Shown here: positions 33,561 through 62,020 of the stretch, one piece after another
How the letters are laid out: each line of letters opens with the position of its first letter
Position numbering within the stretch: the stretch's first letter is position 1
From: Streptomyces sp. man185
GTDB lineage: Bacteria > Actinomycetota > Actinomycetes > Streptomycetales > Streptomycetaceae
Assembly (NCBI GenBank): GCA_002551355.1
Contig: NTHE01000032.1
Coordinates: 1 to 64,000 of the forward strand
DNA length: 64,000 nt
Reading direction: 5' to 3'
Position numbers and translations under genes: made by a program
Notes under the pieces: model-generated
Databases searched by the model: none
Told to the model about the DNA's origin: nothing
The model's input: the letters and a program-made list of their open reading frames with translations, nothing else

Positions 33561-33562
33561 CC

Positions 33563-33791: not shown

Positions 33792-33811
33792 AGCCGCGCC
33801 TGGGCCCACGG

Positions 33812-34320: not shown

Positions 34321-34334
34321 GGTTGCAGGCTGGC

Positions 34335-35215: not shown

Positions 35216-35308
35216 GCCAGACACAACGAGCACGCAGTCCGACAGTCACATGATCCGCCGGACAGTGCCTAACTGTGGATGGTCGCAGCGGGGGCTCCAG
35301 TCCGCGCG

Positions 35309-36225: not shown

Positions 36226-36261
36226 CGTGGCCTCCTTGGGGGTGTCAGAGGGGTGGGGTGG

Positions 36262-37299: not shown

Positions 37300-37321
37300 T
37301 TCGTCTCCTCGCGGTGGTCGC

Positions 37322-38542: not shown

Positions 38543-38669
38543 CAGGGCCTCCTTGGAGGGGATCGGTCCGCATCCATTGCGGTCGCTGTGTCGGGATCGC
38601 TGTCATGCGGACCATCAGGGTGGAAAGAGCGGCAGGTTGCTGCGGGTCCTCGGGGTGACCCGCGGAGGC

Positions 38670-40075: not shown

Positions 40076-40200
40076 GGTTCCAGGTTCCTTTCAGGTCAGT
40101 GGGCTGGGCAGCACGGCCGACCACCAGCCACAGGCGACGGCCCGGCCGGTGCCACGGGCCGTGCCGGAGATCAGGTCGGCTTTCCCTTCGTGCGCTCCCA

Positions 40201-41912: not shown

Positions 41913-42094
41913 GATGCGGCTCCAGGAGGGAGGGGAAACGAGGTCGAATACACGACGCGCCGTCCTGGACACGCCAGGCGAGTGGCGGGCCTACGGGGCG
42001 GGCTCAGGGCCGGACGCCCTCGGCCGGGAGCGCGGAGGCAGGAGTCGGAGCGGGACACCGCCCCCGCGTTCCCGGAGACAACACAGGCCGGAGG

Positions 42095-43036: not shown

Positions 43037-43049
43037 GCGGGTTGCCTCC

Positions 43050-45181: not shown

Positions 45182-45219
45182 GGGGAACTCCCTTGTTCCT
45201 CGGGCTGTGGGCCCCGGGA

Positions 45220-46176
45220 CTACTTGACGGCGACGGGGTTGACGGGTGACCCGACGGCGCCGGTGATGGGCAGGGGTGCGGCAGTGAGCCAGAACTCGTA
45301 GACGCCGTCGGCCGCGCAGTCCTCGGCGAGAGCCTCCAGGTCCCACATCTCGCCGATGAGCAGGCCGATGTGGGGGATGACGACTTGGTGCAGTGGCTGG
45401 AAGGCGTGGTCGAACTCGTTGGGCCGTACCTCGAAGCCCCAGGTGTCGGTGGCGATCGCGGCGATCTCGCTGCCGTGGAGCCAGGGCGCGGTGGTGAAGG
45501 AGAGCCCCGGGGCAGCGCCGCCGGCGTAGTCGCCCCAGCCGTCCCGGCGCACCCGGGCGAGCTGCCCGGTTCGGACGAGGACGATGTCGCCGCGGCCGAC
45601 CGTCACCGCGTGGGCTTCGGCGGCGGCCACCAGGTGCTCCTCGGTGATGGCGAACCCGTCGGGGAGTTCACCGTCCTCTCCGGCCGTCCGGCCGACGTCC
45701 AGCAGCACGGCTCGCCCGGCGATGTGTGGCGCCATGTGCTCGATGCCGGTGACCTGGTCGCCGTCGGAGGTGACGACCTGCTCGGCCGGCCGGCCGTTCC
45801 ACGCCTTCCCGTGGTCGAAGATGTGACCCAGGCCGTCCCACTGGGTGGAGCACTGCAGCGGCATCGCGATCACGTCGTCGGCGCCGCCGATGCCGTGGGG
45901 AAGTCCCTGGTTGCCCAGGGCCGCGTCCGTGCCGGTGTCGAGCATCGTGTGGACCGGATTGGTCCGCCGCCGCCAGCCCTTCTGCGGGCCGTTGATGTCG
46001 AAACGCTGGGACAGGGAGAAGCTGACGCCTCGCCGTATCAGGGCCGCGCCTTCACGGCGCTTGGCCTCGTCGAGGTAGTTCACGGTGCCGAGGCGGTCGT
46101 CCTCGCCCCAACGGCCCCAGTTGGAGCACTGCTCGGCCGCTTGAGCGACCGCGCCCGCGGGATCGGTGCGGTTCAT
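45220..46176 (-). CDS. Cyclase-family metal-dependent hydrolase
   Basis: This 318-residue protein of the cyclase/kynurenine-formamidase-like family has the metal-binding region QCSTQWDGLGHIFDHGKAWN, then GIEHMAPHIAGRAVLLDVGR, VRTGQLARVRRDGWGDYAGG, IAAIATDTWGFEVRPNEFDH and FQPLHQVVIPHIGLLIGEMW. Members hydrolyse amides, lactones or isatin-type rings in aromatic pathways. Here a lactone or cyclic amide upstream of the ring hydroxylation may be opened. ATG 46176 overlaps the upstream FAH stop (ATGA) and has GGAGGGG in front. Confidence 0.87.
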   Translation of the reverse strand: MNRTDPAGAVAQAAEQCSNWGRWGEDDRLGTVNYLDEAKRREGAALIRRGVSFSLSQRFDINGPQKGWRRRTNPVHTMLDTGTDAALGNQGLPHGIGGADDVIAMPLQCSTQWDGLGHIFDHGKAWNGRPAEQVVTSDGDQVTGIEHMAPHIAGRAVLLDVGRTAGEDGELPDGFAITEEHLVAAAEAHAVTVGRGDIVLVRTGQLARVRRDGWGDYAGGAAPGLSFTTAPWLHGSEIAAIATDTWGFEVRPNEFDHAFQPLHQVVIPHIGLLIGEMWDLEALAEDCAADGVYEFWLTAAPLPITGAVGSPVNPVAVK

Positions 46177-47171
46177 TTCCCCTCCGCGACACATCGGGTG
46201 CGCTGGGCGCCCAGTCCGGAGATGGAGGCGTCCATGACGTCGCCGTCGCGCAGCAGGCGCCCCCAATGCATGCCATTGCCGGCCGGCGACCCGGTGAGTA
46301 CAAGGTCGCCGGGGAGCAGGCGCGCGCTCTGGGAGGCGTACGCGACCATGCGCGCCACGTCGAAGATCATGTCCTTGGTGGACTCGTCCTGCATGACCTC
46401 GCCGTTCAGCTTCAAGGTGAGCTGCAGGTCGCCGGTGTCGCCGATCGATTCGGCGGGCACGATCCACGGCCCCAGGGGGGTGAACCCGGGAGCGTTCTTG
46501 CTGCGCAGCCAGTCCGTTCCGATCTGTGGCATGTCCCTGCGGAAGACGGTGGCGCGGTCAGTGAGGTCGTTGGCGATCGTGTAGCCGGCCACGTAGTCCA
46601 GCGCCTCCTGGGGGCAAACCTGGTAGGCGGGTCGGGCGATCACCGCAGCCAACTCCAGTTCCCAGTCCGGCTTTGCCGCCCACCCCGGCAGCGTGACGTC
46701 GTCGTGAGGGCCGGAGATGGAGCTGGGCAGGCCGATGAACATGTACGGAAGATCGTCGGCGGCCCGCCGGTCCATGATCTCGGCCGCTTCGGCGCGCGCC
46801 TCCTCCTCGGAGCGCCCGTCGGACGGATCGCGGTGTGCGACGTGCAGGTCGATGACGTGCTGACGGTAATTGGCACCCGACTGGAAGATCTGCCGCGGTT
46901 CCACAGGAGCGAGGACACGGAAGTCGGACAGAGGGCGGCGTGGCAGCCCCTCCTCGGCGGCGAGATCACGCAGCAGCGGGAGAGCGGTCGGCCACTGCTC
47001 CAGCAGGCCCCGCATGGTCAGCACCGGGTCGACCAGGGCCGTACGCAGGTCGAGAACCTGACTGTCGCGGTCGACAAGAGCGGGGAAGGCAGGGCCGTCA
47101 GAGGCCGAGAGGGTGCCCAGGGCGAAAGGCCCGGCAAATGAGTCAGAAGCGGATCGAGGTTTCACCGGCAT
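46173..47171 (-). CDS. FAH-family hydrolase, first gene of the aromatic operon
   Basis: This 332-residue FAH-family protein shows IFQSGANYRQHVIDLHVAHR, YMFIGLPSSISGPHDDVTLP, DWELELAAVIARPAYQVCPQ (metal Glu), GYTIANDLTDRATVFRRDMP, GFTPLGPWIV and PGDLVLTGSPAGNGM. It is one of three paralogues in the operon and less like the other two than a recent duplication would be. ATG 47171 lies only 2 bp after AGGAGG, whereas GTG two codons later is 8 bp away, so the latter may be the true start. It is the promoter-proximal gene, divergent from the LysR regulator. Confidence 0.87.
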   Translation of the reverse strand: MPVKPRSASDSFAGPFALGTLSASDGPAFPALVDRDSQVLDLRTALVDPVLTMRGLLEQWPTALPLLRDLAAEEGLPRRPLSDFRVLAPVEPRQIFQSGANYRQHVIDLHVAHRDPSDGRSEEEARAEAAEIMDRRAADDLPYMFIGLPSSISGPHDDVTLPGWAAKPDWELELAAVIARPAYQVCPQEALDYVAGYTIANDLTDRATVFRRDMPQIGTDWLRSKNAPGFTPLGPWIVPAESIGDTGDLQLTLKLNGEVMQDESTKDMIFDVARMVAYASQSARLLPGDLVLTGSPAGNGMHWGRLLRDGDVMDASISGLGAQRTRCVAEGK

Positions 47172-47263: not shown

Positions 47264-47299
47264 CCTCTGGTGGCACCGCACGTGAAGGGAAGCCGTACC

Positions 47300-48214
47300 G
47301 TGAATCTGGCCCGTCTCGACCTCAACCTCGTCGTGGCCCTCCGCGCCCTCCTCGAAGAACGCAACGTCACCAAGGCAGGGCAGCGTGTAGGGCTCAGCCA
47401 GCCCGCGATGAGTGCCGCGCTGGGCCGGCTGCGGCGGCACTTCGGCGACGAGCTCCTGTCCCGCGTCGGGAGCCAGTACGAACTCACCGCGCTCGGCCAG
47501 GTCCTCCTGGACCGCACCGCCACCGCGTATGACGTCATCGAACGGCTCTTCGCCAGCCAGGCAGTCTTCGACCCGTCCACGGAGACCCGCGAGTTCCGCC
47601 TCGTGGCCTCCGACTACGCCGTCGACGTCTTCGGCGTCGAACTGGCCCGCGTCATCCACGAGGAGGCCCCGGGAATCCGGCTGCGCTTCACCCGCACCCC
47701 CATCACCGTCGTCGATGACACTTCGAGTCTGCTCAGCGCCACCGACGGGCTGCTGATGCCCCACGGCGTCATCAGCGACTTCCCCGCCACCGATCTGTAC
47801 GACGACCGTTGGGTCTTCGTCGTCGCCGACGACCACCCCAGCGTCGAGGACCGGTTGACCCGCCAGGACCTTGCCCGGCTGCCCTGGGTCACCTACCAGC
47901 GCACCTATGACGCCCCCGCCGTACGCCAGCTCGGCATGCTCGGCATCGAACCGCGCGTCGAGGTCTCCGTCGACAGCTTCCACGCCCTTCCCGCCCTCGT
48001 CGCCGGGACCCGCCGCATCGCACTCGTCCAAGCCCGCCTCGCCCGCCTGCTCGCCCCTGTCGCGGCCGTACGCGTACTCGATCCTCCTTACGAGGCGGTG
48101 CCGCTGCGCGAAGCGCTGTGGTGGCACCCGGTCCACACGCATGACGCCGCCCACATCTGGCTCCGCGAGACCGCGGCCAGGGTCGGCCGACGCGTCGCCG
48201 ATGCGGAGATCTGA
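47300..48214 (+). CDS. LysR-family regulator of the aromatic operon
   Basis: This 304-residue regulator has an N-terminal winged helix MNLARLDLNLVVALRALLEE continuing NVTKAGQRVGLSQPAMSAAL (about 1-60) and a two-lobed effector domain (EFRLVASDYAVDVFGVELAR onward). It belongs to the NodD-like group with Leu-Asp-Leu-Asn at the start. GTG 47300 is preferred because homologues begin MN.LxxLDLNLL; in-frame GTGs at 47270 and 47282 are possible. It is transcribed away from the 12-gene operon across the inverted repeat at 47230-47263. An aromatic intermediate is the expected effector. Confidence 0.9.
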   Translation: MNLARLDLNLVVALRALLEERNVTKAGQRVGLSQPAMSAALGRLRRHFGDELLSRVGSQYELTALGQVLLDRTATAYDVIERLFASQAVFDPSTETREFRLVASDYAVDVFGVELARVIHEEAPGIRLRFTRTPITVVDDTSSLLSATDGLLMPHGVISDFPATDLYDDRWVFVVADDHPSVEDRLTRQDLARLPWVTYQRTYDAPAVRQLGMLGIEPRVEVSVDSFHALPALVAGTRRIALVQARLARLLAPVAAVRVLDPPYEAVPLREALWWHPVHTHDAAHIWLRETAARVGRRVADAEI

Positions 48215-48443: not shown

Positions 48444-49602
48444 ATGCCAGCGTCCCTCGCCCCGCCGTCATCCGACCATGCCGCAGCACCCGTCGGCCGT
48501 CTTCCAGCCGCTGTGCTCATGGCCGGCAGCTGCCTGCCCGTCCTCGGGGCGGTACTTCTTGCCCCCGTACTGCCGCGTATACAGGAGCACTTCGACCACG
48601 TCCCCGGTAGCGCGGCCCTGGTCCCTGTCGTCCTGACCGTCCCCGCGCTCGCGCTTGCCCTACTCGCCCCGTTCGCCGGCGTCATCGTCGACCGGCTCGG
48701 GCGCAAGCGGCTCCTCGTCATCGCCACGGCGTTCTACGCGGTGTTCGGAACCGCCCCGCTCTGGCTGGAGTCGCTCCACGCCATCGTCGTCAGCCGCGTA
48801 CTGGTCGGCGTCACCGAAGCGGCCATCATGACCGCCTGCACCACTCTGATCGGCGGTCTTCTTCGCCCTCGGCGGGGTGCTGGGAGCGGCTGACTGGCGT
48901 GCTCCGTTCTGGCTGTACGCGGCGGGTTTGCTCGTCGCTCCGGTGATGGCCCGCGTCTTACCGAAGCCTGCCCTCCCGCAGAAGGAACAGGGGGCATCCA
49001 CCCGGTCGGTCCAGCACCCCTTCCCGGTGCACCGCATGGCCGGGATCTGCCTTCTCACGGTCTTCGGCGCCATGGTCTTCTACACGGTCCCCGTGGAGAT
49101 GGCCTATCTCCTGGATGATCTCGGCATCGACTGCACCAGCACCATCGGTGTCGTCACCGCGGTGGCCAGCGCCGCCACCGTCCTCGGTTCCGTCATCTTC
49201 GCCCGGCTACCCCAGCACCGACGTCTCCGGCTCCCCGCACTGTTCGCCTGGTGCGCTGTCGGCTTCCTCCTCATGGGCCTGGCCGACAGCCTCCCGCTGC
49301 TGATCACCGGAGCCGTCATCAACTGCGTGGGCACCGGCATGCTTCTGCCGTCGCTGGTGACCCGCGCCATGTCCAGGCTCGGATTCGCCGACCGCGGCCG
49401 CGGCATGGGTCTCTGGACTGCCGCCTTCTTCCTCGGTCAGTTCCTCTGCCCCCTGGTCCTGTTGGCCGGCAAGGGCGCCGTAGGCACCCTTGCCGTCGCC
49501 GTCGCCGCTCTCGGTGCCGTCACCGCCATCACCGCCGCCCTGCTCCTCCCGGCAGCACGCCGGAACTCCGCGGACGCAGAAGTGACGACGGGCGACCGGT
49601 GA
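48444..49602 (+). pseudogene. MFS transporter with internal deletion
   Basis: Frame one (48444-48893) encodes helices 1-4: VLLAPVLPRIQEHF, motif A PFAGVIVDRLGRKRLLV and VLVGVTEAAIMTACTTLIG. It then runs out at LLRPRRGAGSG. Frame two resumes inside the next loop and helix (VFFALGGVLGAADWRAPFWL) and runs to 49602 with the remaining helices. Relatives have about 25 residues (RRRERYLALQ-type loop) between these parts, so about 75 bp and the frame were lost near 48855. GGAG precedes the ATG. It probably imported the aromatic substrate; now it should be inactive unless re-initiation at 48877 makes a partial protein. Confidence 0.78.
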
Positions 49603-49958: not shown

Positions 49959-51008
49959 CTACGGGAGACTCGGTGCCGCCGTGCTGCGCCGCACCACCAG
50001 CCGCGGGGTCATCGTGGTCTGCATGGCCCGGTCACGTCGGCCTTCCACCCGCTCGATCAGCATCCGCGCGGCGGCCAGGCCCATGGTGTGCCCTGCCTGG
50101 TCGACGCTGGTCAGCTGGACAGGGGCGAGCGAGGCGATCGCGGTGTTGTTGTAGCCGACGAGCGAGATGTCCCCGGGGATCGACAGACCGAGGTCGGCGG
50201 CGGCTCGGTAGATGCCGAGGGCTGCTACGTCAGCTCCGGCCAGGATCGCGGTGGGCCGCTGCGCACCGGACAGAAGTGCGAGGCCGGCTGCGTGGCCGCC
50301 GTCGTCGGAGTAAGCGGAGTGGTGCACCCGCGCGCGGTCGGCCAGCCCGTGCCGGTCCATCGCCTGGAGGAATCCGTCGGCCAGAGCGATCTCCGGAGGT
50401 CGCCGCCAGCATCCACTCCTGCTGCCGGGCGCCGACACGAGGGCGATGTCACGGTGGCCGAGTTCGACAAGATGTTCCACCACCAACCCCGCCCCGACAT
50501 CGTCCGCGTCAATGACGGAATCGTGCACGTCAGAGCTGTCGTGGTGTCCGATGACCACGGTAGGCGTCGTTGCCGCCATGTTCAGAACCTCGGAACGCGG
50601 GGTTCCTGGAGCGATGAGGACCAGACCGTCCATCTGGCGGTCCACCATGGCACGGATGGTCCGGGACTGCTCGTCCGCACCGAAGCCTGCCGCGCCGATC
50701 AGCACCGTGTACTCGCTGTCGCTCAGCTCCTCGCGGATGCCGTCGAGGACGTCGGCGAAGAACGCGTTGCGAACGTTGTCGAGCAGGACACCGATCGTGT
50801 ACGTACGTCCTCGCATACCGCGGGCGGCCGCGTGGGGGCGGTACTCCAACTCGGCCATGGCGGCCCGGACCCGCTCCTGCATGCCCGGGCTCACGCCGTA
50901 GGCGTTACGCATGACCTTGGATACGGCGGCGGTGGACACGCCTGCATGACGGGCGACATCCGTGATCGTCACCCGCTTCGTGTCTCTGGGCGAGCTGTCC
51001 GCAGCCAC
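49959..51008 (-). CDS. LacI-family regulator of the second glycoside locus
   Basis: This 349-residue repressor has helix-turn-helix TITDVARHAGVSTAAVSKVM (14-33) with hinge AAARGMRGRTYTIGVLLDN, and a sugar-binding core: DDVGAGLVVEHLVELGHRDI, ILAGADVAALGIYRAAADLG, DISLVGYNNTAIASLAPVQL. GTG 51008 is chosen with GAGG 6 bp upstream; the 26 residues before it are unlike the family. Divergent from the CUT1 importer operon. The palindromes at 51034-51049 and 51157-51166 are its probable sites. Differs clearly from the regulator at 22847, so the two loci probably sense different ligands. Confidence 0.9.
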   Translation of the reverse strand: MAADSSPRDTKRVTITDVARHAGVSTAAVSKVMRNAYGVSPGMQERVRAAMAELEYRPHAAARGMRGRTYTIGVLLDNVRNAFFADVLDGIREELSDSEYTVLIGAAGFGADEQSRTIRAMVDRQMDGLVLIAPGTPRSEVLNMAATTPTVVIGHHDSSDVHDSVIDADDVGAGLVVEHLVELGHRDIALVSAPGSRSGCWRRPPEIALADGFLQAMDRHGLADRARVHHSAYSDDGGHAAGLALLSGAQRPTAILAGADVAALGIYRAAADLGLSIPGDISLVGYNNTAIASLAPVQLTSVDQAGHTMGLAAARMLIERVEGRRDRAMQTTMTPRLVVRRSTAAPSLP

Positions 51009-51033
51009 AAGAACCTCGTTTTCCTGACAGTTG

Positions 51034-51049
51034 GTGTAACGGTCTACAC
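51034..51049. promoter_or_regulatory. Inverted repeat near the LacI start
   Basis: GTGTAACGGTCTACAC has perfect GTGTA/TACAC arms around ACGGTC. It lies 25 bp before the LacI GTG, suggesting autoregulation and control of the divergent importer. Confidence 0.6.
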
Positions 51050-51156
51050 GCGCGGCCACAGGGGGCCAGGCCACTCGGCCACGCAAAGCCGATGTTACGC
51101 GCCTGTGTCTTGACGACGCCAGAGAGATGGCGTCATGGTGTGACCACCTCGAATGG

Positions 51157-51166
51157 AGAACGTTCT
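51157..51166. promoter_or_regulatory. CG-centred LacI-type operator before the binding-protein gene
   Basis: AGAACGTTCT is a perfect palindrome; TGGAGAACGTTCTACA around it keeps outer TG/CA. It lies 88 bp upstream of the GTG at 51255 in the divergent promoter and shows the central CG typical of LacI-family operators. Confidence 0.6.
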
Positions 51167-51254
51167 ACACGACTCCGTTCTCTCAGCGGCCGCCCCACCG
51201 CCGCCCTGCGCCTGCTCGGCGCCCCCTCTCCTTCACGATCCCTGGGAGTCACCA

Positions 51255-52565
51255 GTGCCCCATCGCATGATCCGCGCCCGCCGTACTCGTCTGACCTTCT
51301 TCTCTGCCGGCGTCACCTCCCTGGCCCTTCTCGCTTCCGCTTGCGGCGGCGGTGGCACCTCCGCGGCACCCAAGGAGTTCAAGTACCTCAGCGTCACCGA
51401 GAACACGACCACCAGAACGGCACTGATGAAGCTCTCCAAGGGCTCCTGCAAGGCCGAGAACGACGCCCTGCCGCTGAAGGTCGAAACCGTGCCTCAGGCG
51501 AGTCTGGACCAGAAGCTCCAGCTGCTCGCGGGCCAGGACGCGCTGCCCGCCCAGTTCGCCGCCGGCAATGCGCCCGCGCTCACCAAGCAGCTGGCCGAGT
51601 CCGGCAAGGTGGCCAACCTGGATCTCGAACTCGAGCGGCTCGGCGTCTTCGACGATCTCGAGCCCGCTGCCGTCTCCACCATCAAGGCCCTGTACGACGG
51701 CAAGGTGCAGACGCTGCCCTACGAGTACAACATCGAGGGAATCTTCTACAACAAGAAGATTTTCAAGGAGAAGGGTATCGAGGTCCCCGGCACCTGGGAC
51801 GAATTGATCGCGGCCTCGGACAAGCTCAACAACAAGGGCGTCCAGCCCTTCGCCGCCTCCGGCCAGCAGGGCTGGCCGATCACCCGCCTCATCAGCGGGT
51901 ACCTCTACCGGAGCCTTGGCCCCGGCGCCCTGGACGACGTCAACACCGGCCTCGCCCAGCTGACCGAGCCCGAGTACGTCAAGGCCGCCGAGGAGATCGC
52001 TGCCCTCGGCAAGAAGGGCTACTTCGGCAAGGGTGTCGGCTCCATCGACTACGACACGGCGATGAACCAGTTCCTCACCGGCAAGTCCGCCATGTTCTAC
52101 ATGGGCAGCTGGGCCCTGGCCAACATCTCCGACCCCAAGCAGAACAAGGTCGGCGCCGACAACGTCGGCTTCATGCCTTTCCCCGCCGTCACCGGCGGCG
52201 CCGGCTCCGCCGACCAGTACCCCTCCAACGTGGGCCTGGCCGTCACCCTCGGCTCGAAGAACTTCGACAAGAAGACCGACGCCTGGGTGCGCTGCATCGC
52301 CAAGAACTACGGCAGCACCGCGCTCAAAAACCACGGCTCCATCTCCGGCTTCAAGGTCAACACGCCGGTCAAGGACGCCAACGAGGTCACGACCACCGTA
52401 CGCAAGACGATCAGCTCCTCCCAGCAGAACGTCCTGTGGTTCGAAGCGCTCTTCAGCACCAAGGCGACCACGGCCAGCCAGACCAACGCCGCCGGACTCG
52501 TCACCGGCAGCGTGAGCCCCAAGCAGTTCATGGAGACCGTCCAGAGCGCACTCAAGAGCAAGTAG
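51255..52565 (+). CDS. CUT1 sugar-binding lipoprotein
   Basis: This 436-residue extracytoplasmic receptor has a signal ending in lipobox LASAC-GGGG. The mature protein is a large two-lobe binding protein of the CUT1 class: LAGQDALPAQFAAGNAPALT, LPYEYNIEGIFYNKKIFKEK, VPGTWDELIAASDKLNNKGV, MGSWALANISDPKQNKVGAD. The family binds oligosaccharides or glycosides rather than free pentoses. GTG 51255 (GGGAG 6 bp upstream) is preferred; ATG 51267 is possible. Followed after 92 bp by two permeases. Ligand probably a rhamnose-containing glycoside, by neighbourhood. Confidence 0.92.
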   Translation: MPHRMIRARRTRLTFFSAGVTSLALLASACGGGGTSAAPKEFKYLSVTENTTTRTALMKLSKGSCKAENDALPLKVETVPQASLDQKLQLLAGQDALPAQFAAGNAPALTKQLAESGKVANLDLELERLGVFDDLEPAAVSTIKALYDGKVQTLPYEYNIEGIFYNKKIFKEKGIEVPGTWDELIAASDKLNNKGVQPFAASGQQGWPITRLISGYLYRSLGPGALDDVNTGLAQLTEPEYVKAAEEIAALGKKGYFGKGVGSIDYDTAMNQFLTGKSAMFYMGSWALANISDPKQNKVGADNVGFMPFPAVTGGAGSADQYPSNVGLAVTLGSKNFDKKTDAWVRCIAKNYGSTALKNHGSISGFKVNTPVKDANEVTTTVRKTISSSQQNVLWFEALFSTKATTASQTNAAGLVTGSVSPKQFMETVQSALKSK

Positions 52566-52657
52566 AGCCCGGCCGACGGGCGGCTCGCCACCCGGCGGGC
52601 GAGCCGTCCCCCCGATGCCTGGCCGGCCCTCCACCTGAAACGAAGTGGACACCACTC

Positions 52658-53542
52658 ATGCACCGCGTACTCGGTGACCGCAGGGCGATCATGATCCTGC
52701 TCGGTCCCGCACTCCTCGTCTACACCCTGATCATGCTCGTCCCCACGGTGTGGTCGCTCGGGTACTCCTTCACCAAGGGCAACTCCATCGACGGCTTCAC
52801 CGGCAACGGTCTGGCCAACTTCACCAGGCTCTTCTCCGACCAAGCCGTCCACGACGCCCTCTGGTTCACCGTGAAGTACGCGGTCCTCGTCACCGTCGGC
52901 CAGGTCATCGCCGGCTACCTCCTGGCTCTGCTCTACGTCTTCTTCCTCAAGAAGGCGTCCGCGCTCATCCGCACCCTGGTCTTCTTCCCGGTCGTCCTGC
53001 CCACCGTCGCCGTCGGCCTGCTCTTCCAGAAGTTCTTCCAGGTCGCCCCCCAGACCGGCCCCGTCAACTCCCTGCTCAACACCTTCGGCCTGGAGTCCGT
53101 CGACTTCTTCGGCAGCGCGGGAAGCGCCTTCTGGGTGCTGGTCAGCATGGACATCTGGCGCTCCATGGGATTCTACGCCGTACTCCTGTTCGCCGGCCTC
53201 GTCGACATCCCCGACGAGGTCCTCGAATCAGCCCGCCTCGACGGCGCTTCCGGCCTTCGCCTCATTCGCCATATCGTCCTGCCGCTCTCCCTGCCGGTCC
53301 TCATGTCCTCCTTGATCTTCAGCATCAACGGCACCCTGAAAGTCTTCGACTCCGTCGTCGCCCTCACCAACGGCGGCCCCGGAACCGGCACCACCCCGCT
53401 GACCCTGTACATGTTCCAGACGTCGTTCACCTACAGCGAGTACGGCTACGGCAGCACCATCGCGCTGCTCCTCACCGTCGTCTGCCTTCTGGTGAGCCTG
53501 ACGGTCTACCGCGTCTCTCGACGCGACATCACGGAGGGCTGA
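52658..53542 (+). CDS. CUT1 sugar ABC permease 1 (MalF type)
   Basis: This 294-residue permease has six hydrophobic segments. The first, IMILLGPALLVYTLIMLVP, is at 11-29; NGLANFTRLFSDQAVHDALW marks the periplasmic start; the EAA loop is EVLESARLDGASGLRLIRHI (about 187-206), where it docks on the ATPase. The ending LTVVCLLVSLTVYRVSRRD is typical. No ATPase gene is in the locus, so a shared MsiK-type ATPase elsewhere is expected, as usual in Streptomyces. It is 5 bp before the second permease. Confidence 0.92.
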   Translation: MHRVLGDRRAIMILLGPALLVYTLIMLVPTVWSLGYSFTKGNSIDGFTGNGLANFTRLFSDQAVHDALWFTVKYAVLVTVGQVIAGYLLALLYVFFLKKASALIRTLVFFPVVLPTVAVGLLFQKFFQVAPQTGPVNSLLNTFGLESVDFFGSAGSAFWVLVSMDIWRSMGFYAVLLFAGLVDIPDEVLESARLDGASGLRLIRHIVLPLSLPVLMSSLIFSINGTLKVFDSVVALTNGGPGTGTTPLTLYMFQTSFTYSEYGYGSTIALLLTVVCLLVSLTVYRVSRRDITEG

Positions 53543-53547
53543 GCGTC

Positions 53548-54450
53548 ATGGCCATCGAAACCGCCCTCAAGCCCGCTTCGCCCGAACACAGGCGCACCAG
53601 ACTCCAGAACCGCAACTCCGTCCGCAAGGCGGGCGGCCGTCTCTGGATCAAGATCGCCGTAACCTTCCTGCTGGTCATCGAGGTCTACCCACTGATCTGG
53701 ATGTTCCTCACCTCGCTGAAGTCCAACAGCGACTACCTCAACAACTCCACCTGGAGCCTTCCCACCACCTGGGAATGGGGCAACTACACCGAAGCGTGGA
53801 CCACAGGAAACATCGGTCTCTATGTCCAGAACAGTCTGCTGGCCGTCGTCCCCGCCCTGGCCCTCATCCTGCTTCTTGGCACCGCGGCCGGATTCGCCCT
53901 GCAGATCATGGTCTGGAAGGGCCGAAGCCTGACCCTCCTGGTCTTTCTCGCAGGAATGATGGTTCCGCCGCAGATGATTCTGCTGCCCCTGTTCACCGTC
54001 TATTTCCAGGCCGGTCTCTCCGGGACCCTGTGGCCGCTCATCCTCACCTACACGGGCACGGGCCTCCCGTTGACCGTATTCATGATGGCCACCTATTACC
54101 GAACCGTGCCCCGAGAGCTGTTCGAAGCGGCAACTCTCGACGGGGCCGGGATCCTGCGTGCCTTCTGGACCATCAGCGTGCCGATGGTCCGCAACGCACT
54201 GCTCACGGTCGGGCTGGTGCAGTTCTTCTTCATCTGGAACGACCTCCTCATCGCCCTCACCTTCACCAACAGCCAGGATCTGCGCACCATCCAGGTCGGC
54301 CTGCTGAACTTCACCGGCGACTTCGGCGCCACCCAGTACGGCCCGCTGTTCGCGGCCATCTGCATCAACGTTTTCGGCACACTAGTGATCTACCTCTTCC
54401 TCAACCAGAAGGTCATGAAGGGCCTCACTTCAGGAGCGGTCAAGGGCTGA
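53548..54450 (+). CDS. CUT1 sugar ABC permease 2 (MalG type)
   Basis: This 300-residue partner permease has a 36-residue cytoplasmic N-terminus, six helices and the MalG-type EAA loop ELFEAATLDGAGILRAFWTI (about 190-209). VEVYPLIWMFLTSLKSNS is the first helix. Its ending FLNQKVMKGLTSGAVKG is classic for CUT1 MalG-like proteins. The GH78 gene follows after 44 bp on the same strand, so the transported glycoside is probably split inside the cell. Confidence 0.92.
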   Translation: MAIETALKPASPEHRRTRLQNRNSVRKAGGRLWIKIAVTFLLVIEVYPLIWMFLTSLKSNSDYLNNSTWSLPTTWEWGNYTEAWTTGNIGLYVQNSLLAVVPALALILLLGTAAGFALQIMVWKGRSLTLLVFLAGMMVPPQMILLPLFTVYFQAGLSGTLWPLILTYTGTGLPLTVFMMATYYRTVPRELFEAATLDGAGILRAFWTISVPMVRNALLTVGLVQFFFIWNDLLIALTFTNSQDLRTIQVGLLNFTGDFGATQYGPLFAAICINVFGTLVIYLFLNQKVMKGLTSGAVKG

Positions 54451-54494
54451 ATCACCCCTTCTCCTCACTCCCGAGCACACGAAAGGTCCCTTCC

Positions 54495-57071
54495 TTGCAG
54501 TCCCTCCAGCCTTCCCCGGTGCGCTTCGAGCATCTGCCGGACGGCCTCGGCATCGGTACCAGCTCGCCCCGCCTGTCCTGGACCTCCGCGCCCGAAGCCG
54601 GAGACCAGCACGCCTACGAAGTCGAGCTTCGCCGCGACGACCGGCTCCGCCGCACGGGCCGTATCACCGCACCCGACCACCTGCTCGTTCCTTGGCCCGA
54701 CGAACCGCTCAGCTCACGCGAGCGCGCCGCCGTGCGCGTGCGCACCTGGTCGACGGAAGGCGGCGCTCCCTCGCCGTGGAGTCGGCCCGCTGTCGTCGAG
54801 GCCGGCCTGTTCGAGCCGGGTGACTGGACCGCTCTCCCCGTCGGTGCCGCCTGGCAGGAGGACCCTGCAGCCGAACGCCGCCCGGCCCGCGTCCGTAAGC
54901 ACTTCCGGGCGGACGACAAGCCGGTCGAGCGCGCCCGGCTCTACATCACCGCCCATGGTCTGTACGAGGCGGAGATCAACGGGACCCGAGTCGGTGACGA
55001 AACCCTGGCACCCGGCTGGACCGTCTATCAACATCGTCTGCGCTACCGCACCTACGACGTCACCTCCCTCCTCACCTGCGGCACCAACACCATCGGCGCC
55101 TGGCTCGCGGACGGTTGGTACCGCGGCAAATACGGCTTCGACGGCGGCACACGCAACATCTACGGCACCGACCAGTCCCTCATAGCCCAACTCGAGATCA
55201 CCTACACCGACGGAACCAGCACGGTGGTCGCCACCGACCACACCTGGCACGCCGCCTTCGGCCCCATCCTGACCAGCGGCCTGTACGAAGGCGAGACGTT
55301 CGATGCCCGGCTGGACGACCCGCACTGGGCCACTCCGAGCGCGCCCCAGGACAGCTGGACACCCGTACGCGTCGGAAGCCGAGACCCCAGGACACTGGTC
55401 GCGCCCGAAGGTCCCCCGGTTCGGTGCACCCAGGAAATCGCCCCGGTGTCCGTCACCCGCACCTCCGACGGCCGGCACCTGCTCGACTTCGGGCAGAACC
55501 TGGTGGGCCGTCTACGGATCACCACCGATGGACCGGCCGGCGCCATCCTCACCTTCCGGCACGCAGAGGTCCTCCAGAGCGGAGAACTCGCCATCCTCCC
55601 CCTGCGCGAAGCACACTCCACGGACACCCTCGTCCTGCCGGGCAACGGTCCCTATACGTGGGAACCTCGCTTCACCCTCCACGGCTTTCGCTATGCCGAG
55701 ATAAGCGGCTGGCCCGGCGAGCTCGCCCCGCATGCCGTGACCGCGCGCGTCCACCACACGGACATGCGTCGCACGGGCTGGTTCGAGTGCAGCGATCCCC
55801 TGGTCAACCGCCTCCACGAGAACGTCCTGTGGAGCATGCGAGGCAACTTCGTCGACATCCCGACCGACTGCCCTCAGCGCGATGAGCGCCTTGGCTGGAC
55901 CGGAGACATCCAGGTCTTCACCCCCACCGCGAGCTTTCTCTACGACTGCGCCGGCATGCTCAACTCCTGGCTCACCGACGTGGGCAAGGAACAGCTGCCG
56001 GACGGCACCATTCCCTGGTACGTGCCGGTCATACCCGGCAATCCGATGTGGACCCCGATCCAGCCGGGAGCCGCCTGGGGGGACGTCGCCACCCTCACCC
56101 CCTGGGCCCTGTACCAGCGCTTCGGTGATCTCGAACTTCTACGGCGTCACTACCCCATGGCCAAGGCGTGGGTCGACCTCGTCGAGAAGCTCGCCGGCCC
56201 CGAGCGGCTCTGGAACACCGGTTTCCAACTAGGGGACTGGCTCGACCCGGCCGCCCCACCGGATGACCCCGCCGCCGGCCGCACCGACCGCCACCTCGTC
56301 GCCACCGCCTACTTCGCCCACTCCACCCGGCACCTCGCCCGTGCCGCCCAAGCGCTGGGTCGTACAGGCGAAACAGATCGGTACGACACACTCGCCGACG
56401 AAGTCACCACGGCGTTCCGACGACGCTACGCCCAACCCGACGGCCGCCTGTCGAGCGACAGCCCCACCGCGTACGCCATCGCCATCGTGTTCAACCTTCT
56501 TGAGACCCCACAGCGTGTGGTGGCAGGCGACCGTCTTGCCGAGCTCGTCCGCCAGGACGACGCGCGCATCGCCACAGGCTTCGTCGGGACCCCTCTCATC
56601 TGCGACGCCCTGACGGATACCGGCCACCTCGACAGCGCCTACCGTCTGCTCCTGCAGACCGAATGCCCGTCGTGGCTCTACCCCGTCACCATGGGCGCCA
56701 CCACCATCTGGGAACGCTGGGACAGTCTCCGCCCGGACGGAACCCTCAACCCAGGCGGCATGACCTCCTTCAATCACTACGCTCTCGGTGCGGTCGCCGA
56801 CTGGCTCCACCGAGTCGTCGGAGGCATCGAGGTCACAGCGCCGGGCGCTGCCACACTTGCCTTCCGACCCCGCCCCGGCGGCGGCATCACGTGGGCCCGC
56901 ACCCGCCATGAGACGCCCCACGGAACCGCCGCGATCTCCTGGCAAACCACTCCGGCCGGCATCAAGGCCCAGATCACCGTGCCCCCGAACTGCACAGCAC
57001 TCGCCGAGCTGCCGGGCTACGAAGCCCAAACCCTCGGGCCCGGCACGCACATATTTCCTTCAAGGAGATAG
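54495..57071 (+). CDS. Cytoplasmic GH78 alpha-L-rhamnosidase (858 aa)
   Basis: This 858-residue rhamnosidase has no signal peptide, in contrast to the secreted one at 9848. N-terminal beta domains (PVRFEHLPDGLGIGTSSPRL) lead to RARLYITAHGLYEAEINGTR, LDFGQNLVGRLRITTDGPAG, and the catalytic barrel with DERLGWTGD (Glu464) and TTIWERWDS (Glu740). The start is judged to be TTG 54495, since AAAGG lies 8 bp ahead; GTG 54519 lacks a site. It follows the importer by 44 bp and should act on imported rhamnosides. A hairpin follows at 57120. Confidence 0.92.
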   Translation: MQSLQPSPVRFEHLPDGLGIGTSSPRLSWTSAPEAGDQHAYEVELRRDDRLRRTGRITAPDHLLVPWPDEPLSSRERAAVRVRTWSTEGGAPSPWSRPAVVEAGLFEPGDWTALPVGAAWQEDPAAERRPARVRKHFRADDKPVERARLYITAHGLYEAEINGTRVGDETLAPGWTVYQHRLRYRTYDVTSLLTCGTNTIGAWLADGWYRGKYGFDGGTRNIYGTDQSLIAQLEITYTDGTSTVVATDHTWHAAFGPILTSGLYEGETFDARLDDPHWATPSAPQDSWTPVRVGSRDPRTLVAPEGPPVRCTQEIAPVSVTRTSDGRHLLDFGQNLVGRLRITTDGPAGAILTFRHAEVLQSGELAILPLREAHSTDTLVLPGNGPYTWEPRFTLHGFRYAEISGWPGELAPHAVTARVHHTDMRRTGWFECSDPLVNRLHENVLWSMRGNFVDIPTDCPQRDERLGWTGDIQVFTPTASFLYDCAGMLNSWLTDVGKEQLPDGTIPWYVPVIPGNPMWTPIQPGAAWGDVATLTPWALYQRFGDLELLRRHYPMAKAWVDLVEKLAGPERLWNTGFQLGDWLDPAAPPDDPAAGRTDRHLVATAYFAHSTRHLARAAQALGRTGETDRYDTLADEVTTAFRRRYAQPDGRLSSDSPTAYAIAIVFNLLETPQRVVAGDRLAELVRQDDARIATGFVGTPLICDALTDTGHLDSAYRLLLQTECPSWLYPVTMGATTIWERWDSLRPDGTLNPGGMTSFNHYALGAVADWLHRVVGGIEVTAPGAATLAFRPRPGGGITWARTRHETPHGTAAISWQTTPAGIKAQITVPPNCTALAELPGYEAQTLGPGTHIFPSRR

Positions 57072-57539
57072 CAGACTCGACTGAGCAGGCGCCGCAAAAG
57101 TTCCAGGCACCCTTGCTCGTGCCCGGCATGACTCCACCTTTCATGCCGGGCATTTGCGTGCCTTGAAAGGGTCACCTGCATCCATGAGGCGGATGGCCGT
57201 CATCTAAATTTCGTATGGATGCTTCACCAAAGCGTCAGCCAAGCAGTTGAGAAATTCCTCACCCTGCCGAAATTTTGAACATCCGCGCAGATCAGGGACG
57301 GCTCAGTGAATTCGCAATGCCTGAGGGGTTGACCAGAAACACTGAGAGCCATAGCTTTCCGAATCACACAAGGCGCCCAACCGTCGAGCCCTTGAAAAGT
57401 CCTCGGTAAGGGTCGCGGGACGCACAGACCCGCCCAGGACAGTAATTCGGATAAATCCTGACCGGCGAATTATCCGCCGGATGGCAACACCGACGTCGAC
57501 GGGTCCCCACCCCGCCGCCCCACTCCTCGGAGAGCCGCC
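57072..57539. other. Intergenic region before the GH3 gene
   Basis: 468 bp without a gene. It starts with the terminator at 57120-57152 and is notably richer in A/T than its surroundings. TGAGAAATTCCTCA (57248-57261) is a near-palindrome (12 of 14 positions) and could be an operator for GH3. The end carries the GH3 ribosome binding site GGAGAG. Confidence 0.6.
57120..57152 (+). terminator. Terminator after the importer-GH78 operon
   Basis: TGCCCGGCATG and CATGCCGGGCA form a perfect 11-bp stem with an 11-nt loop, followed by TTTG. It lies 49 bp after the GH78 stop and makes the GH3 gene a separate transcription unit. Confidence 0.8.
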
Positions 57540-60014
57540 GTGAACCGACGCACCTTCCTGTCCTCCGCCATCGCCACCGCACTCGCCGTCAGCATGGTCC
57601 CCACCGCCAACGGTCAGGCCATCGCCGCGACCGATCCCCGCGCCTTCGACCGCGCTGACGCTCTTCTCGCCCGGATGTCCGCTGCCGACAAGGACGCCCT
57701 CATCCGGTGCGACTTCGCCGCCCTCAGCCACCTCGGTATCCCCGCCCTCACCATGGTCGACGCCTCCGCCGGGCTGCGTGGCGAACAGAACGTCACCGCG
57801 TTCCCGGTCCCCCTCGCCCAGGCCGCCACCTTCGACGAGGACCTGACGCGCCGTATCGGGGTCGCCATCGGCACCGAGGGACGCGCCAAGGGGTACAACA
57901 GCCTTCTCGGGCCGACCATCGATCTGACGCGGACCTGGCACTTCGGGCGCCAGGCCGAGAGCCTGGGAGAAGACCCGCTCCTCGCGGGCCGCCTCGGCGC
58001 CGCCCTCACCACCGGCATGCAGAGCCGTCAGGTCACGGCCACGGTCAAGCACTTCGCGGCCTACACCCAGGAAGTGAACCGCTTCTTCAGCGACACCCTG
58101 GTGTCCGACCGCGCGATGCACGAGATCTACCAAGCGCCCTTCCGCCGCGTCATCGCCGCCGCGCCCACCACCTCGGTCATGATGGCCTATCCCAAGATCA
58201 ACGGGACCTTCGCCACCCAGAGCCCCACCCTCTTCAACGACGTCAAGTCCCGCCTCGGCCTTCAGGGTTACACCGTCCCTGACTTCTGGGCCGGCGACGA
58301 CCAGGTAGCCGCCGCCAAGGCGGGCATGGACCTCGCGGGGCTCGGCCCCGGCGGCGTCAAGCTCGTACCCGGCGAGGTCGCTCGCAGCGTGTCCACCGCA
58401 CGGCTCGACGATGCCGCACGCCGCATCCTCGTCACCATGTTCGCCAACGGCCTCGTGGACAACCCGGTCCCGGCACCGGCTCAAGACGTCAGCACCGCCG
58501 AACACAAGAGCCTCGCCCACGAAGCAGCCCTCGCCTCCACCGTGCTGCTGGCCAACCGTTCCTCAGCCCTGCCTCTGCCCACCAGGCTCAGGTCGCTCGC
58601 CGTCATCGGGCCCGCCGGAACCGACGCGCTCACCGGCGTCGCCGGCTCCACCTACGTCGACCCCGGCACCTGGACCACTCCCCTGCAGGCCATCAAGACC
58701 CGTGCAGGCAGCGGCATCACCGTCACCCACGCCCAAGGCACCACCGGCGACGTCCCCCTCAGCACCGTTCCCTCCAGCGTGCTGCACACCACCGGTAGAG
58801 CCCCCGGCCTCACCGGCCGCTACTACGCCTCCCCCGAGCCCACCGGCACACCCCTCACCACCCGCACCGACAGCGTCATCGACTTCACCAGCACTCCGGT
58901 CGACACCCTTCCCGCAGTCTGGTCCGCGACCTGGTCAGGCACGCTGACACCGACGCACAGCGGCCTGCACCGCTTCTCCCTCCTGGCCGCGGGCACCGCC
59001 ACCCTGAAGATCAACGGCGTCACCGTAGTCACCGGATCCCGTGGCACACGGCGCTTCTTCCTCGGCACTTACGACTATCCCCTCCAGGGCGCCATCGACC
59101 TGGCCGCGGGCAGAACCGTGTCAGTCGACCTCACCTACAGCAACGCCACCGCCGACCCCGGCACCAGCGGCCTCACCCTCGGCTGGCAGCCCGGCTCCCT
59201 GATACCGGCCGCCGTCCAGGCCGCCACCAAGGCCGAGGCCGCCGTCGTCTTCGTCAACCGCATCGCCGGTGAAGCCATGGACCACGAACAGCTCACCCTC
59301 CCCGCAGACCAGAACCAGCTCATCACCGCCGTCGCCGCCGCGAACTCCCGCACCATCGTCGTCCTGAACACGGACGGCCCCATCGCGATGCCCTGGCTGA
59401 ACGACGTCGAGGCCGTCATACAGACCTGGTACGGAGGCCGCGGCATGGGCACCGCCCTCGCGGCCGTCCTGTTCGGCGACAGCGACCCCTCGGGCAGGCT
59501 GCCCCTCACCTTCCCCACCGACGCCTCTCAAGGCCCCGGCACCACGGCGGCGACATACCCGGGCAAGAACGGCACCGTCTCCTACGACGAGGGAACCGCC
59601 ATCGGCTACCGCTACTACGACGCCAAGGGGCAGCAACCTCAGTTCCCCTTCGGGCACGGCCTCTCCTACACGACCTTCGCCCACGGCTCCCCAGAAGCCT
59701 CCTACAGCGCCGCCAGCAGGACCGTGACTCTCTCCGTCACCGTCACCAACAGCGGTACCCGCCCGGGCACCGAGGTCGTCCAGATCTACGCCACCCTCCC
59801 CACGACTGCGGCTGCCGAGGCGCGCCGACTCGTCGCTTTCCGTAAGACGACTCTCGCTCCCGGAGCCAGCCGGCGCCTCACCTTCACCATCCCCACCGAC
59901 GACCTCACCGTCTGGACATCCGGAACGTGGGCCTTGGTCCCCGGCCTCTACACCTTCGCGAGCGCCCGCAACTCCCGAGCTGTCACCGCGCAGAGAAACC
60001 TCACCATCGGCTGA
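57540..60014 (+). CDS. Secreted GH3 beta-glucosidase with PA14 insert
   Basis: This 824-residue glycosidase has a Tat-like signal MNRRTFLSSAIATALAVSMV ending near AIA-AT at about 30. The GH3 N-domain has SLGEDPLLAGRLGAALTTGM, VKHFAAYTQEVNRFFSDTLV and the nucleophile Asp248 in YTVPDFWAGDDQ. The second domain starts after 300; a PA14-like module (about 421-560, GLTGRYYASPEPTG onward) is inserted, as in GH3 enzymes acting on flavonoid or plant glucosides. A fibronectin-like end (VTVTNSGTRPGTEVVQIYA) closes it. GTG 57540 follows GGAGAG. It should remove glucose outside the cell. Confidence 0.92.
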   Translation: MNRRTFLSSAIATALAVSMVPTANGQAIAATDPRAFDRADALLARMSAADKDALIRCDFAALSHLGIPALTMVDASAGLRGEQNVTAFPVPLAQAATFDEDLTRRIGVAIGTEGRAKGYNSLLGPTIDLTRTWHFGRQAESLGEDPLLAGRLGAALTTGMQSRQVTATVKHFAAYTQEVNRFFSDTLVSDRAMHEIYQAPFRRVIAAAPTTSVMMAYPKINGTFATQSPTLFNDVKSRLGLQGYTVPDFWAGDDQVAAAKAGMDLAGLGPGGVKLVPGEVARSVSTARLDDAARRILVTMFANGLVDNPVPAPAQDVSTAEHKSLAHEAALASTVLLANRSSALPLPTRLRSLAVIGPAGTDALTGVAGSTYVDPGTWTTPLQAIKTRAGSGITVTHAQGTTGDVPLSTVPSSVLHTTGRAPGLTGRYYASPEPTGTPLTTRTDSVIDFTSTPVDTLPAVWSATWSGTLTPTHSGLHRFSLLAAGTATLKINGVTVVTGSRGTRRFFLGTYDYPLQGAIDLAAGRTVSVDLTYSNATADPGTSGLTLGWQPGSLIPAAVQAATKAEAAVVFVNRIAGEAMDHEQLTLPADQNQLITAVAAANSRTIVVLNTDGPIAMPWLNDVEAVIQTWYGGRGMGTALAAVLFGDSDPSGRLPLTFPTDASQGPGTTAATYPGKNGTVSYDEGTAIGYRYYDAKGQQPQFPFGHGLSYTTFAHGSPEASYSAASRTVTLSVTVTNSGTRPGTEVVQIYATLPTTAAAEARRLVAFRKTTLAPGASRRLTFTIPTDDLTVWTSGTWALVPGLYTFASARNSRAVTAQRNLTIG

Positions 60015-60907: not shown

Positions 60908-61873
60908 TCAGCGCACTCGTCCACGTGGCTTCAGCGGGGTCGTGGGCAGTTCCGGGGCGGGCAGGCGGGCACCGTCGTAGCCCTGCACCTCGCCGAACCG
61001 CGAGCCCTTCTCCCAGTCGTTTCGCGCCTGTACGATCTCCTCACCGGATCGGGCGATGAAGTTCCAGAACATGACGAGCTCCTCTTCGAACGGCTCGCCG
61101 CCCAGGAGCATCAGCCCGGCGTCGGATGCGGCGCGCAGCGGGAGTTCGGTGCGGCCGCAGCCGAGGTAGAGCATCGAGCCGGGCAGCACGGGTACGCCGT
61201 CGACCTCGGCCTCGCCCGACATGGACAGGACCGCGTACTCGAAGTCGGGGTTCAGGGGGAGGCGGGCCTCTGCGCCACCGGTCAGGGACACGTCGGCGCC
61301 GATGATCGGGGTGTACGTGGTGCCGGGCGAGGCCACCCCGTCCAGTTCGCCCAGGATGACGGTGGCGGCCAGGCCGGGGGCGGTGACGACGGGCAGGTCC
61401 GTGTGGTGCTGGAAGTGCGGCTCGACGTTGCGGTGGGCTTCCGGGAGGGCCACCCAGAGCTGCGCCCCGTGCAGGAGCCGGGCGTGTTCTTTCGGGCTCT
61501 CCTCGGAGTGGCTGATGGCGCGGCCCGAGGTCATCAGGCCCAGCTCGCGGGGGCGTACGGTCTGCAGACTGCCGAGGCTGTCCCGGTGGAGCACCTCCCC
61601 GTCGTGGAGCCAGCTGACGGTCTGGAGACCCATGTGCGGGTGCGGCGGGACCTGCATGCCCGGCTCGTCGGCGATGTCGTCCGGCCCGTAGTGGTCCACG
61701 AAGGCCCACGCTCCCACCATGCGCCGGCCGAGGTTGGGCAGGAGGCGGCGGACCTCGGTGCCCTCGCCCAGCTGAACGCGGCGGGGGGCCAGAAGCTCAC
61801 GGACGGGCTCGGCGACGACGAAACCCCGTCCTCCGCAGACGGAGGGCGCGGCCTGGCGATCGAGATTGCTCAT
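60908..61873 (-). CDS. Pirin-family protein
   Basis: This 321-residue bicupin has the metal-binding cluster WAFVDHYGPDDIADEPGMQV followed by PPHPHMGLQTVSWLHDGEVL and later ISHSEESPKEHARLLHGAQL. These give the His/Glu set of pirins; the C-domain (FEEELVMFWNFIARSGEEI) is complete. Bacterial pirins such as YhhW can oxidise quercetin, while others modulate enzymes. The ATG at 61873 is chosen because MSNLDRQ starts similar proteins. An unusually A/T-rich patch (about 61921-61950) lies upstream. Confidence 0.9.
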   Translation of the reverse strand: MSNLDRQAAPSVCGGRGFVVAEPVRELLAPRRVQLGEGTEVRRLLPNLGRRMVGAWAFVDHYGPDDIADEPGMQVPPHPHMGLQTVSWLHDGEVLHRDSLGSLQTVRPRELGLMTSGRAISHSEESPKEHARLLHGAQLWVALPEAHRNVEPHFQHHTDLPVVTAPGLAATVILGELDGVASPGTTYTPIIGADVSLTGGAEARLPLNPDFEYAVLSMSGEAEVDGVPVLPGSMLYLGCGRTELPLRAASDAGLMLLGGEPFEEELVMFWNFIARSGEEIVQARNDWEKGSRFGEVQGYDGARLPAPELPTTPLKPRGRVR

Positions 61874-62020
61874 GGCGCTCAACCTATTCCCGTAGGGGCG
61901 TGGAGCACCGGGTCCCACGCCAAAATTTTAGTGGAATGTTCAACCATTGTGCGGTGTTGTCATGGCTGAACGTACGGCGGGGCGGTCCGGGAAGGGCCCG
62001 CACCACACGAAGGAGGACAC

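Follow-up and report, generated by a model that had tools for sequence, protein, structure and literature searches.

An ordinary-looking sugar operon of Streptomyces sp. man185 and a co-inherited aromatic operon probably form one island for a rhamnosylated aromatic compound

Plants are rich in flavonoid rhamnoglucosides, among them rutin and naringin. The fde cluster for naringenin in Herbaspirillum seropedicae is governed by FdeR, a LysR-type regulator. FdeE of that cluster is described as a flavonoid A-ring hydroxylase (PMC11303751, PMC8552027), and the available account of the ifc cluster for isoflavones in Variovorax gives a ring-opening pair of a FAD monooxygenase and a VOC/glyoxalase-type dioxygenase, together with an alpha/beta hydrolase and cupins (PMC11069340). 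On the sugar side, BcpE2 is reported to be active on many plant heterosides, with Asp239 and Glu582 as catalytic residues and Asp59, Arg127, Tyr207, and Trp240 in the active site (PMC9426481). According to PMC10591481, a GH3 rutinosidase is known solely from a fungus (Acremonium alphaR-betaG II); the Actinoplanes missouriensis rutinosidase, considered as a GH3 precedent, was dropped, as the same text places it in GH55. Here we analyze 64,000 nucleotides of Streptomyces sp. man185 (contig NTHE01000032.1, positions 1 to 64,000; the window), in which a LacI-family regulator (LacI2), a CUT1 importer, a cytoplasmic GH78 alpha-L-rhamnosidase, and a GH3 protein form a cassette at 49959-60014.

This cassette adjoins an aromatic operon with which it is co-inherited, so that the two are probably one island rather than the cassette being half of a two-locus system. 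With somewhat better than even confidence, we read the cassette as the sugar-handling part of a single catabolic island (~35.4-60.0 kb) whose substrate would be an aromatic plant compound bearing rhamnose, a flavonoid rhamnoglucoside being the likeliest. The original prediction had named rhamnosyl-glucosides as substrates, which still looks like a fair guess, but had made no use of the aromatic operon, the strongest co-inherited partner of the cassette.

Co-inheritance of the cassette and the aromatic operon

Among 150 genomes of the genus, the window's included, 11 carried an orthologue of the cassette's solute-binding protein (SBP; at least 74% identity), each adjoining a GH78 orthologue (at least 72%). 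A GH3 orthologue (at least 69%) was present in 9 of these 11 and in none of the remaining genomes, where the next matches reached at most 42%. When the set was extended to 392 genomes of the genus, the SBP (at least 72%) was found in 31 and the GH3 (at least 66%) in 27, all within the 31, and the two genes lay within 20 kb of each other on the same contig in 25 of the 27. These searches score the best few candidates per genome (four for the SBP, two for the GH3), so a second copy could be hidden, and the 392-genome counts leave out six genomes (seven matches) with an SBP of 56 to 58%, as well as a 48% GH3 beside the importer of G415 (G and L numbers denote genomes and loci of our set). The six genomes with the 56 to 58% SBP paralogue (G347, G273, G228, G285, G313, and G304) have no GH3 orthologue.

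The LysR gene that governs the aromatic operon (E 1e-120) was present in 29 of the 31 cassette genomes versus 88 of the 361 others, and it lay at most 20 kb from the SBP gene in 26 of the 31, the exceptions being G406, G415, G109, G087, and G421. Linkage went with the GH3: 26 of the 27 genomes with a GH3 had the linked operon and none of the four without it did (Fisher P = 1.6e-4, or 2.8e-4 after collapsing the window's clade), P values that are indicative only because the genomes are related. The linked operon stands beside LacI2 (the window type), downstream of GH3 (G053), between GH3 and GH78 (G123 and G259, with GH3 adjoining LysR in G123), or in the layout of G229, and linkage that persists across several layouts speaks against a single block simply passed down unchanged. 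In G070 and G364 the linked operon is partial, with no match next to LysR for a number of the core genes.

Further genes accompany the linked islands. A gentisate-type module was present in 20 of the 26; it was not seen in G272, G390, G259, or G053, it may lie beyond the contig ends in G256 and G437, and the contig of G364 ends before FAHa, the last gene of the module. Both rhaI and rhaD were found in 9 of the 26 (G115, G019, G056, G254, G321, G422, G397, G272, and G229), in island stretches that differ in the length read. For comparison, ~40 kb was searched around 17 of the 20 LysR loci that lie away from a cassette (G077, G104, and G007 left out). These stretches do show the core genes, and one of the genomes, G109, has its cassette elsewhere, but the gentisate module, RhaI/RhaD, GH78, and GH3 were each found in 0 of 17 (tblastn, E 1e-15). 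That the SBP adjoins GH78 in all 11 genomes and that rhaI and rhaD occur in 9 of the linked islands bears out the earlier assignment of the importer to a rhamnoside system.

In Streptomyces sp. NBC_01237, the island is located on a 1.6-Mb linear plasmid (NZ_CP108509.1) typed as non-mobilizable. In G229 (L253, 13046) and G390 (L251, 15481), the cassette or core operon has a second, more distant GH78 (54 to 56%) nearby. On a conjugative plasmid of Arthrobacter sp. NicSoilB11 (L212, 5936-18899), a GH3 and a GH78 gene stand beside genes for a GMC oxidoreductase, a DUF6379 protein, and a sugar isomerase, a set that we take to resemble 3-oxo-type glycoside deglycosylation sets; this GH78 was rejected as an orthologue at 47% identity to that of the window.

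Cassette genes, operators, and the GH3 pocket

The gene order and coordinates given by the original prediction (LacI, CUT1 importer, cytoplasmic GH78, and secreted GH3 with PA14) were borne out by Pfam and NCBIfam models. LacI2 (49959-51008, minus strand; Pfam LacI PF00356 and Peripla_BP_3 PF13377) belongs to an open reading frame (ORF) that opens at 51086, but its conserved start is probably GTG at 51008, as the most distant orthologues align from residue 31 to 37 on and that of G123 from residue 14. On the plus strand follow the SBP, a lipoprotein with an SBP_bac_1 domain and a lipobox, LASAC, recognized by eye (51267-52565), and two permeases with BPD_transp_1 domains (52658-53542 and 53545-54450), the combination that defines a CUT1 importer. 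The two best Protein Data Bank (PDB) matches of the SBP are chitin-oligosaccharide-binding proteins. The importer claimed earlier is thus present as lipoprotein and permeases, but its operon contains no ATPase gene; two OB_MalK-type ATPases are encoded elsewhere in the genome.

The next gene (54495-57071, plus strand, TTG start) encodes a predicted cytoplasmic alpha-L-rhamnosidase with five GH78-type Pfam domains (PF17389 at 1.7e-126, PF08531, PF05592, PF25788, and PF17390) and no signal peptide discernible by eye. Its top PDB match is 6gsz (E 3.8e-236), and its motifs RDERLGWTGD and WERWDS, which we take to be the conserved GH78 motifs of the catalytic carboxylates, align with 6gsz and 3w5m; rhamnoside hydrolysis is predicted. 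A PF17389 search of the genome recovered two GH78 catalytic domains.

Two operators occupy the spacer between LacI2 and the SBP gene, O1 (TGTAACGGTCTACAC, 51035-51049, plus strand, score 24.5) and O2 (GAGAACGTTCTACAC, 51156-51170, plus strand, score 26.9). Both were found in this spacer in 11 of 11 genomes, O1 with single-base variants (one change in G115), and they suggest that LacI2 represses the importer operon. Beyond O1 and O2, the top score in the window was 13.3 (at 51737, within the SBP gene), and the overlapping reverse reading of O2 scored 20.5; in relatives, the best other scores were 17.1 (G123), 15.2 (G065), and 14.6 (G052), at unrelated places. The whole genome has a single copy of the O2 core, GAACGTTNTACA. 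When one mismatch was allowed, a looser LacI2 pattern also matched at 22900 (inside LacI1) and 61553, giving three matches versus 0.8 expected. No operator of this kind or of the first rhamnose locus was found between GH78 and GH3, and alignment of the regions upstream of GH3 revealed only a conserved stretch resembling a ribosome-binding site, with no shared operator. The GH3 gene is therefore either read through from GH78 or separately controlled, and the statement that the cassette is under its own LacI regulator stands for the importer operon but not for GH3.

The GH3 protein (57540-60014, plus strand; Pfam GH3 N, PA14, GH3 C, and Fn3) begins with MNRRTFLSS, which carries the twin-arginine (Tat) type motif RRTFL, and it is probably exported via Tat. 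Its domain order and catalytic Asp and Glu are those of PA14-type GH3 beta-glucosidases, and all nine orthologues retain D248 and E578 as well as the pocket residues D74, R137, K170, H171, R181, and Y217. The same nine depart from the canonical −1 pocket at F249, P218, Y175, and H582. Compared with 21 paralogues (those with stored loci among 35 paralogue rows), the Trp after the nucleophile is replaced by Phe249 (W in 20 of 21 paralogues), AYN by AYP (N in 20), KHFxxN by KHFxxY (N in 19), DGP by DAS (GP in all 21), and the Arg of EGxDR by His (R in 20). The protein thus stays a GH3, yet its predicted glucose pocket is altered and a glucosidase specificity is only putative. An AlphaFold model built from the nine-sequence alignment had a mean predicted local distance difference test score (pLDDT) of 49 and was not used.

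We tentatively suggest, as a possibility that we rate well below the island itself, that in the GH3 we see a bacterial diglycosidase, a rhamnosyl-glucosidase with a remodeled glucose pocket that frees rutinose or a similar disaccharide from a flavonoid outside the cell. CUT1 would then be a dedicated disaccharide importer, with GH78 splitting the imported sugar, and the island would be self-contained, dealing with flavonoid rhamnoglucosides down to the sugar and both rings. Because the glucose of a rutinoside is capped by rhamnose, an exo-glucosidase could not attack it unaided, whereas a diglycosidase, an importer, and an inner GH78 together could handle it.

Aromatic genes, proposed route, and rival explanations

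The aromatic operon (35362-47171, minus strand) lies upstream of the cassette and diverges from its LysR gene (47270-48214, plus strand; HTH_1 and LysR_substrate). From the LysR side on, it encodes a fumarylacetoacetate-hydrolase (FAH) family protein (FAHc, 46173-47171; PF01557), a putative cyclase/hydrolase (45220-46467; PF04199), a FAD monooxygenase (FMOb, 44051-45346; FAD_binding_3; NCBIfam NF005313 at 455 bits, above the cut-off of 372), the true starts of both the latter being probably downstream, and an amidohydrolase-2 family hydrolase or decarboxylase (43050-44132; PF04909). Next come a VOC extradiol dioxygenase (42095-43048, start estimated) with two stretches of Glyoxalase PF00903 and 44% identity to PDB 3b59 (E 4.5e-75), a second FAH family protein (FAHb, 40941-41972; PF01557), a short-chain dehydrogenase/reductase-type oxidoreductase (40201-40932, start estimated, the domain part of ORF 40201-41364; PF13561), and subunits A and B of a 3-oxoacid CoA-transferase (38670-40075; TIGR02429 and TIGR02428, above cut-off). 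The gentisate-type module closes the operon: a monooxygenase nearest to 3-hydroxybenzoate 6-monooxygenase (FMOa, 37322-38542; NF006021 at 395 bits, below the cut-off of 459), a bicupin nearest to gentisate 1,2-dioxygenase (36262-37530, true start probably downstream), and FAHa (35362-36225; PF01557), judged from its position to be probably a fumarylpyruvate hydrolase. The best model for the bicupin, TIGR02272, scores 348 bits, below its cut-off of 442; the bicupin matches PDB 2d40 (E 9.5e-83), and gentisate dioxygenases, one of them named putative, make up its six best PDB matches. The presence of two unlike ring-cleaving dioxygenases with a single rhamnoside cassette would suit a two-ring aglycone, e.g., a flavonoid. 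A pirin-family gene lies downstream of GH3 (60908-61918) and, among the islands of relatives, had its sole match in that of G115, a close relative; certain pirins act as quercetinases.

If these assignments hold, the GH3, exported via Tat, would act outside the cell and cut the glycosidic bond that holds the aglycone, and the CUT1 binding protein and permeases would import the rhamnose-bearing sugar with a shared MalK/MsiK-type ATPase. The cytoplasmic GH78 would then split off L-rhamnose for consumption by RhaI, RhaB, and RhaD, and LacI2 would hold the importer operon off via its two operators, with the imported sugar, or else rhamnose, as the inducing signal. In an order of steps that we can only propose, one ring of the aglycone would be opened by the FAD monooxygenase and extradiol dioxygenase of the LysR-governed operon, and the other by the module resembling 3-hydroxybenzoate hydroxylase, gentisate dioxygenase, and FAH.

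The island may be in decay in the window strain. From ~35.27 kb on, the window is 97 to 98% identical to G254 and G115, and the match to G115 extends to 60.1 kb (the stretch read in G254 stops short of that point). At 35.27 kb the match breaks, and a 225-bp stretch (26478-26701) matches the far side of their rhaBDI set. The intervening 8.6 kb (26701-35268) has no match at that place in either relative and one 204-bp match elsewhere in G254; there G254 and G115 carry a LacI1-like gene and rhaIDB, and the window has genes for a FAD-NAD(P)-binding protein, a methyltransferase, and an ATP-grasp protein (26970-30182) and an ORF with a DDE transposase domain (34335-35186). The window strain has thus probably lost its island copy of rhaBDI. 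Beside LysR, an MFS transporter gene is truncated as well (48877-49602, plus strand; 241 amino acids versus 409 in three close relatives), with ~70 bp missing relative to G115 and the frame lost.

The original prediction had instead proposed two cooperating loci, in which a secreted GH78 at a first locus trims rhamnose, the GH3 removes glucose, a RhaS importer takes up the rhamnose, and CUT1 and GH78 provide a second route. That first locus is real: 26 kb from the cassette, it encodes a secreted GH78 (9848-13048, minus strand) with a Tat-type leader and a score above the NCBIfam rhamnosid_Stmyc cut-off, next to RhaD-ADH, RhaI, and RhaS proteins above their equivalog cut-offs and a RhaB that is the best match yet falls below cut-off. 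Both GH78 proteins keep the conserved domains, and the proximity of the locus in a strain whose island rhaBDI set is missing also speaks for cooperation. The 26-kb spacing, however, is peculiar to this strain among the genomes compared; where a secreted-GH78 orthologue (67 to 74% identity) shares a contig with the cassette, the distance is 0.2 Mb (G109), 2.1 Mb (G052), or 7.9 Mb (G065), with no rha genes in the 20 kb around it, and in 4 of the 9 genomes with a GH3-bearing cassette (G019, G056, G053, and G070) no secreted GH78 was matched among the 6 candidates scored per genome. The operators differ too. The first locus has two copies of the palindrome TGAANSSNTTCA (17894-17905 and 18060-18071), outside the island, and between the two loci only one-mismatch matches cross over, near chance level; those of TGAANSSNTTCA (9 matches of the palindrome in all versus 2.2 expected) include sites inside the permease 2 (54416) and GH3 (58075) genes. 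A further exact match lies at 30708-30719, away from the rhamnose genes, and could be chance. Free rhamnose had been proposed to feed the first locus, but the cytoplasmic GH78 would release it inside the cell, where RhaI, RhaB, and RhaD are needed rather than the rhamnose importer. With neither spacing, operators, nor orthologue distribution in agreement, we regard a paired two-locus system as unlikely. Having probably lost the island rhaBDI, the window strain may depend on the first locus for rhamnose breakdown, and only in this respect might the two loci work together in it.

The cassette could also serve an unrelated rhamnoside, such as a saponin or other terpenoid glycoside, and merely travel with the aromatic operon as accessory plant-compound genes, as might be argued from the frequency of the core-operon LysR in cassette-free genomes and from the 5 of 31 cassettes not linked to it. 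We give this somewhat less credence still, as the linkage survives several layouts, GH3 is confined to cassette genomes and tied to linkage, and the gentisate module accompanies linked islands, not the 17 unlinked operons. Least probable to us is an importer for plant cell wall rhamno-oligosaccharides (side products of rhamnogalacturonan I) that GH78 trims inside the cell. CUT1 importers commonly take oligosaccharides, and the chitin-oligosaccharide matches of the binding protein would agree, but no pectin lyase or unsaturated-glucuronyl hydrolase was seen among the 40 window ORFs scanned, which are not every ORF, and the co-inherited partners are GH3 and aromatic genes.

Several observations weigh against one island for a flavonoid rhamnoglucoside. 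The FMOa and bicupin assignments both fall below NCBIfam cut-offs, and a 3-hydroxybenzoate hydroxylase is not expected where the flavonoid B-ring is of the typical 4'-hydroxy kind. Members of the VOC family are also encoded in other aromatic clusters (Corynebacterium and Rhodococcus plasmids), and this, with LysR in 88 of 361 cassette-free genomes, means that the substrate of the core operon need not be a flavonoid. GH3 and SBP lie on separate contigs in G390 and G364, the LysR gene of G406 is 2.1 Mb off although GH3 is present, and the region in front of GH3 yielded no LacI2 operator. Across the family (E 1e-150), a search recovered the GH3 in two genomes of 61, each of them from the window's own genus, and in none of the 51 genomes that represent 16 other genera. 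To these may be added the truncated MFS gene and replaced rhaBDI set of the window strain and the fact that FMOb and VOC were likened to FdeC/FdeE by description.

If the single-island reading is correct, genes for capturing and importing a glycoside are joined, under separate regulators, to those for using rhamnose and to two modules for ring cleavage, which would give a concrete genetic basis for use of the whole molecule by soil actinomycetes and mark the species capable of it. It would also single out a bacterial GH3 as a candidate diglycosidase and the SBP as a candidate for disaccharide binding; should the diglycosidase reading hold, such a system would be carried by a minority of Streptomyces species, once (NBC_01237) on a linear plasmid.

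Comparison with described catabolic systems

No description of such an island was found among the titles and abstract openings listed in a literature search, with most subscription papers outside it. A scan based on an alignment led by 3b59 retained the best 80 of 523 VOC relatives, mostly from sphingomonads and none named Herbaspirillum or Variovorax; an FMOb homologue was encoded at 75 of these 80 loci, an FAHb homologue at 63, and a LysR homologue at 60. The FMOb-VOC pair thus appears homologous to a pair found mostly in sphingomonads, a likeness that falls short of proven orthology. One such locus, L141, is annotated with, in this order, a FAD monooxygenase, a VOC protein, an alpha/beta hydrolase, a cupin, an epimerase, and an FAH protein, gene kinds that match those given for the Variovorax isoflavone cluster (PMC11069340).

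On the sugar side, BcpE2, KmBglI, and DesR, which are GH3 beta-glucosidases with PA14, share the domain order and catalytic Asp and Glu of the window GH3; unlike them, it has a Tat-type leader, and the position of BcpE2 Trp240 is Phe249. Acremonium alphaR-betaG II, likened here by description alone, is a GH3 as well and would release rutinose from flavonoid rutinosides, but it is fungal. Release-import-cleave systems such as that of Bifidobacterium longum include an intracellular cleavage step. The beta-L-arabinobiosidase and ABC importer of B. longum likewise place extracellular enzyme and import in one cluster, but for another sugar and with other families, and no attached aglycone catabolism is evident from the available part of the source (PMC7263609).

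On the aromatic side, fde and ifc, as far as their available descriptions go, have the same pairing of a FAD monooxygenase and a VOC-type dioxygenase as the window operon (PMC11069340, PMC8552027), where FMOb and VOC stand in one LysR-governed operon with the amidohydrolase gene between them. No Rieske protein like FdeD was found among the operon ORFs scanned, and there was no alpha/beta hydrolase or ifc-type cupin in the operon, its only cupin being the one that resembles gentisate dioxygenase. Where ifc has an alpha/beta hydrolase and cupins, the window has the PF04909 amidohydrolase, the PF04199 hydrolase, and three FAH proteins, and, unlike both fde and ifc, it has a cassette for rhamnoside import and a gentisate-type module attached.

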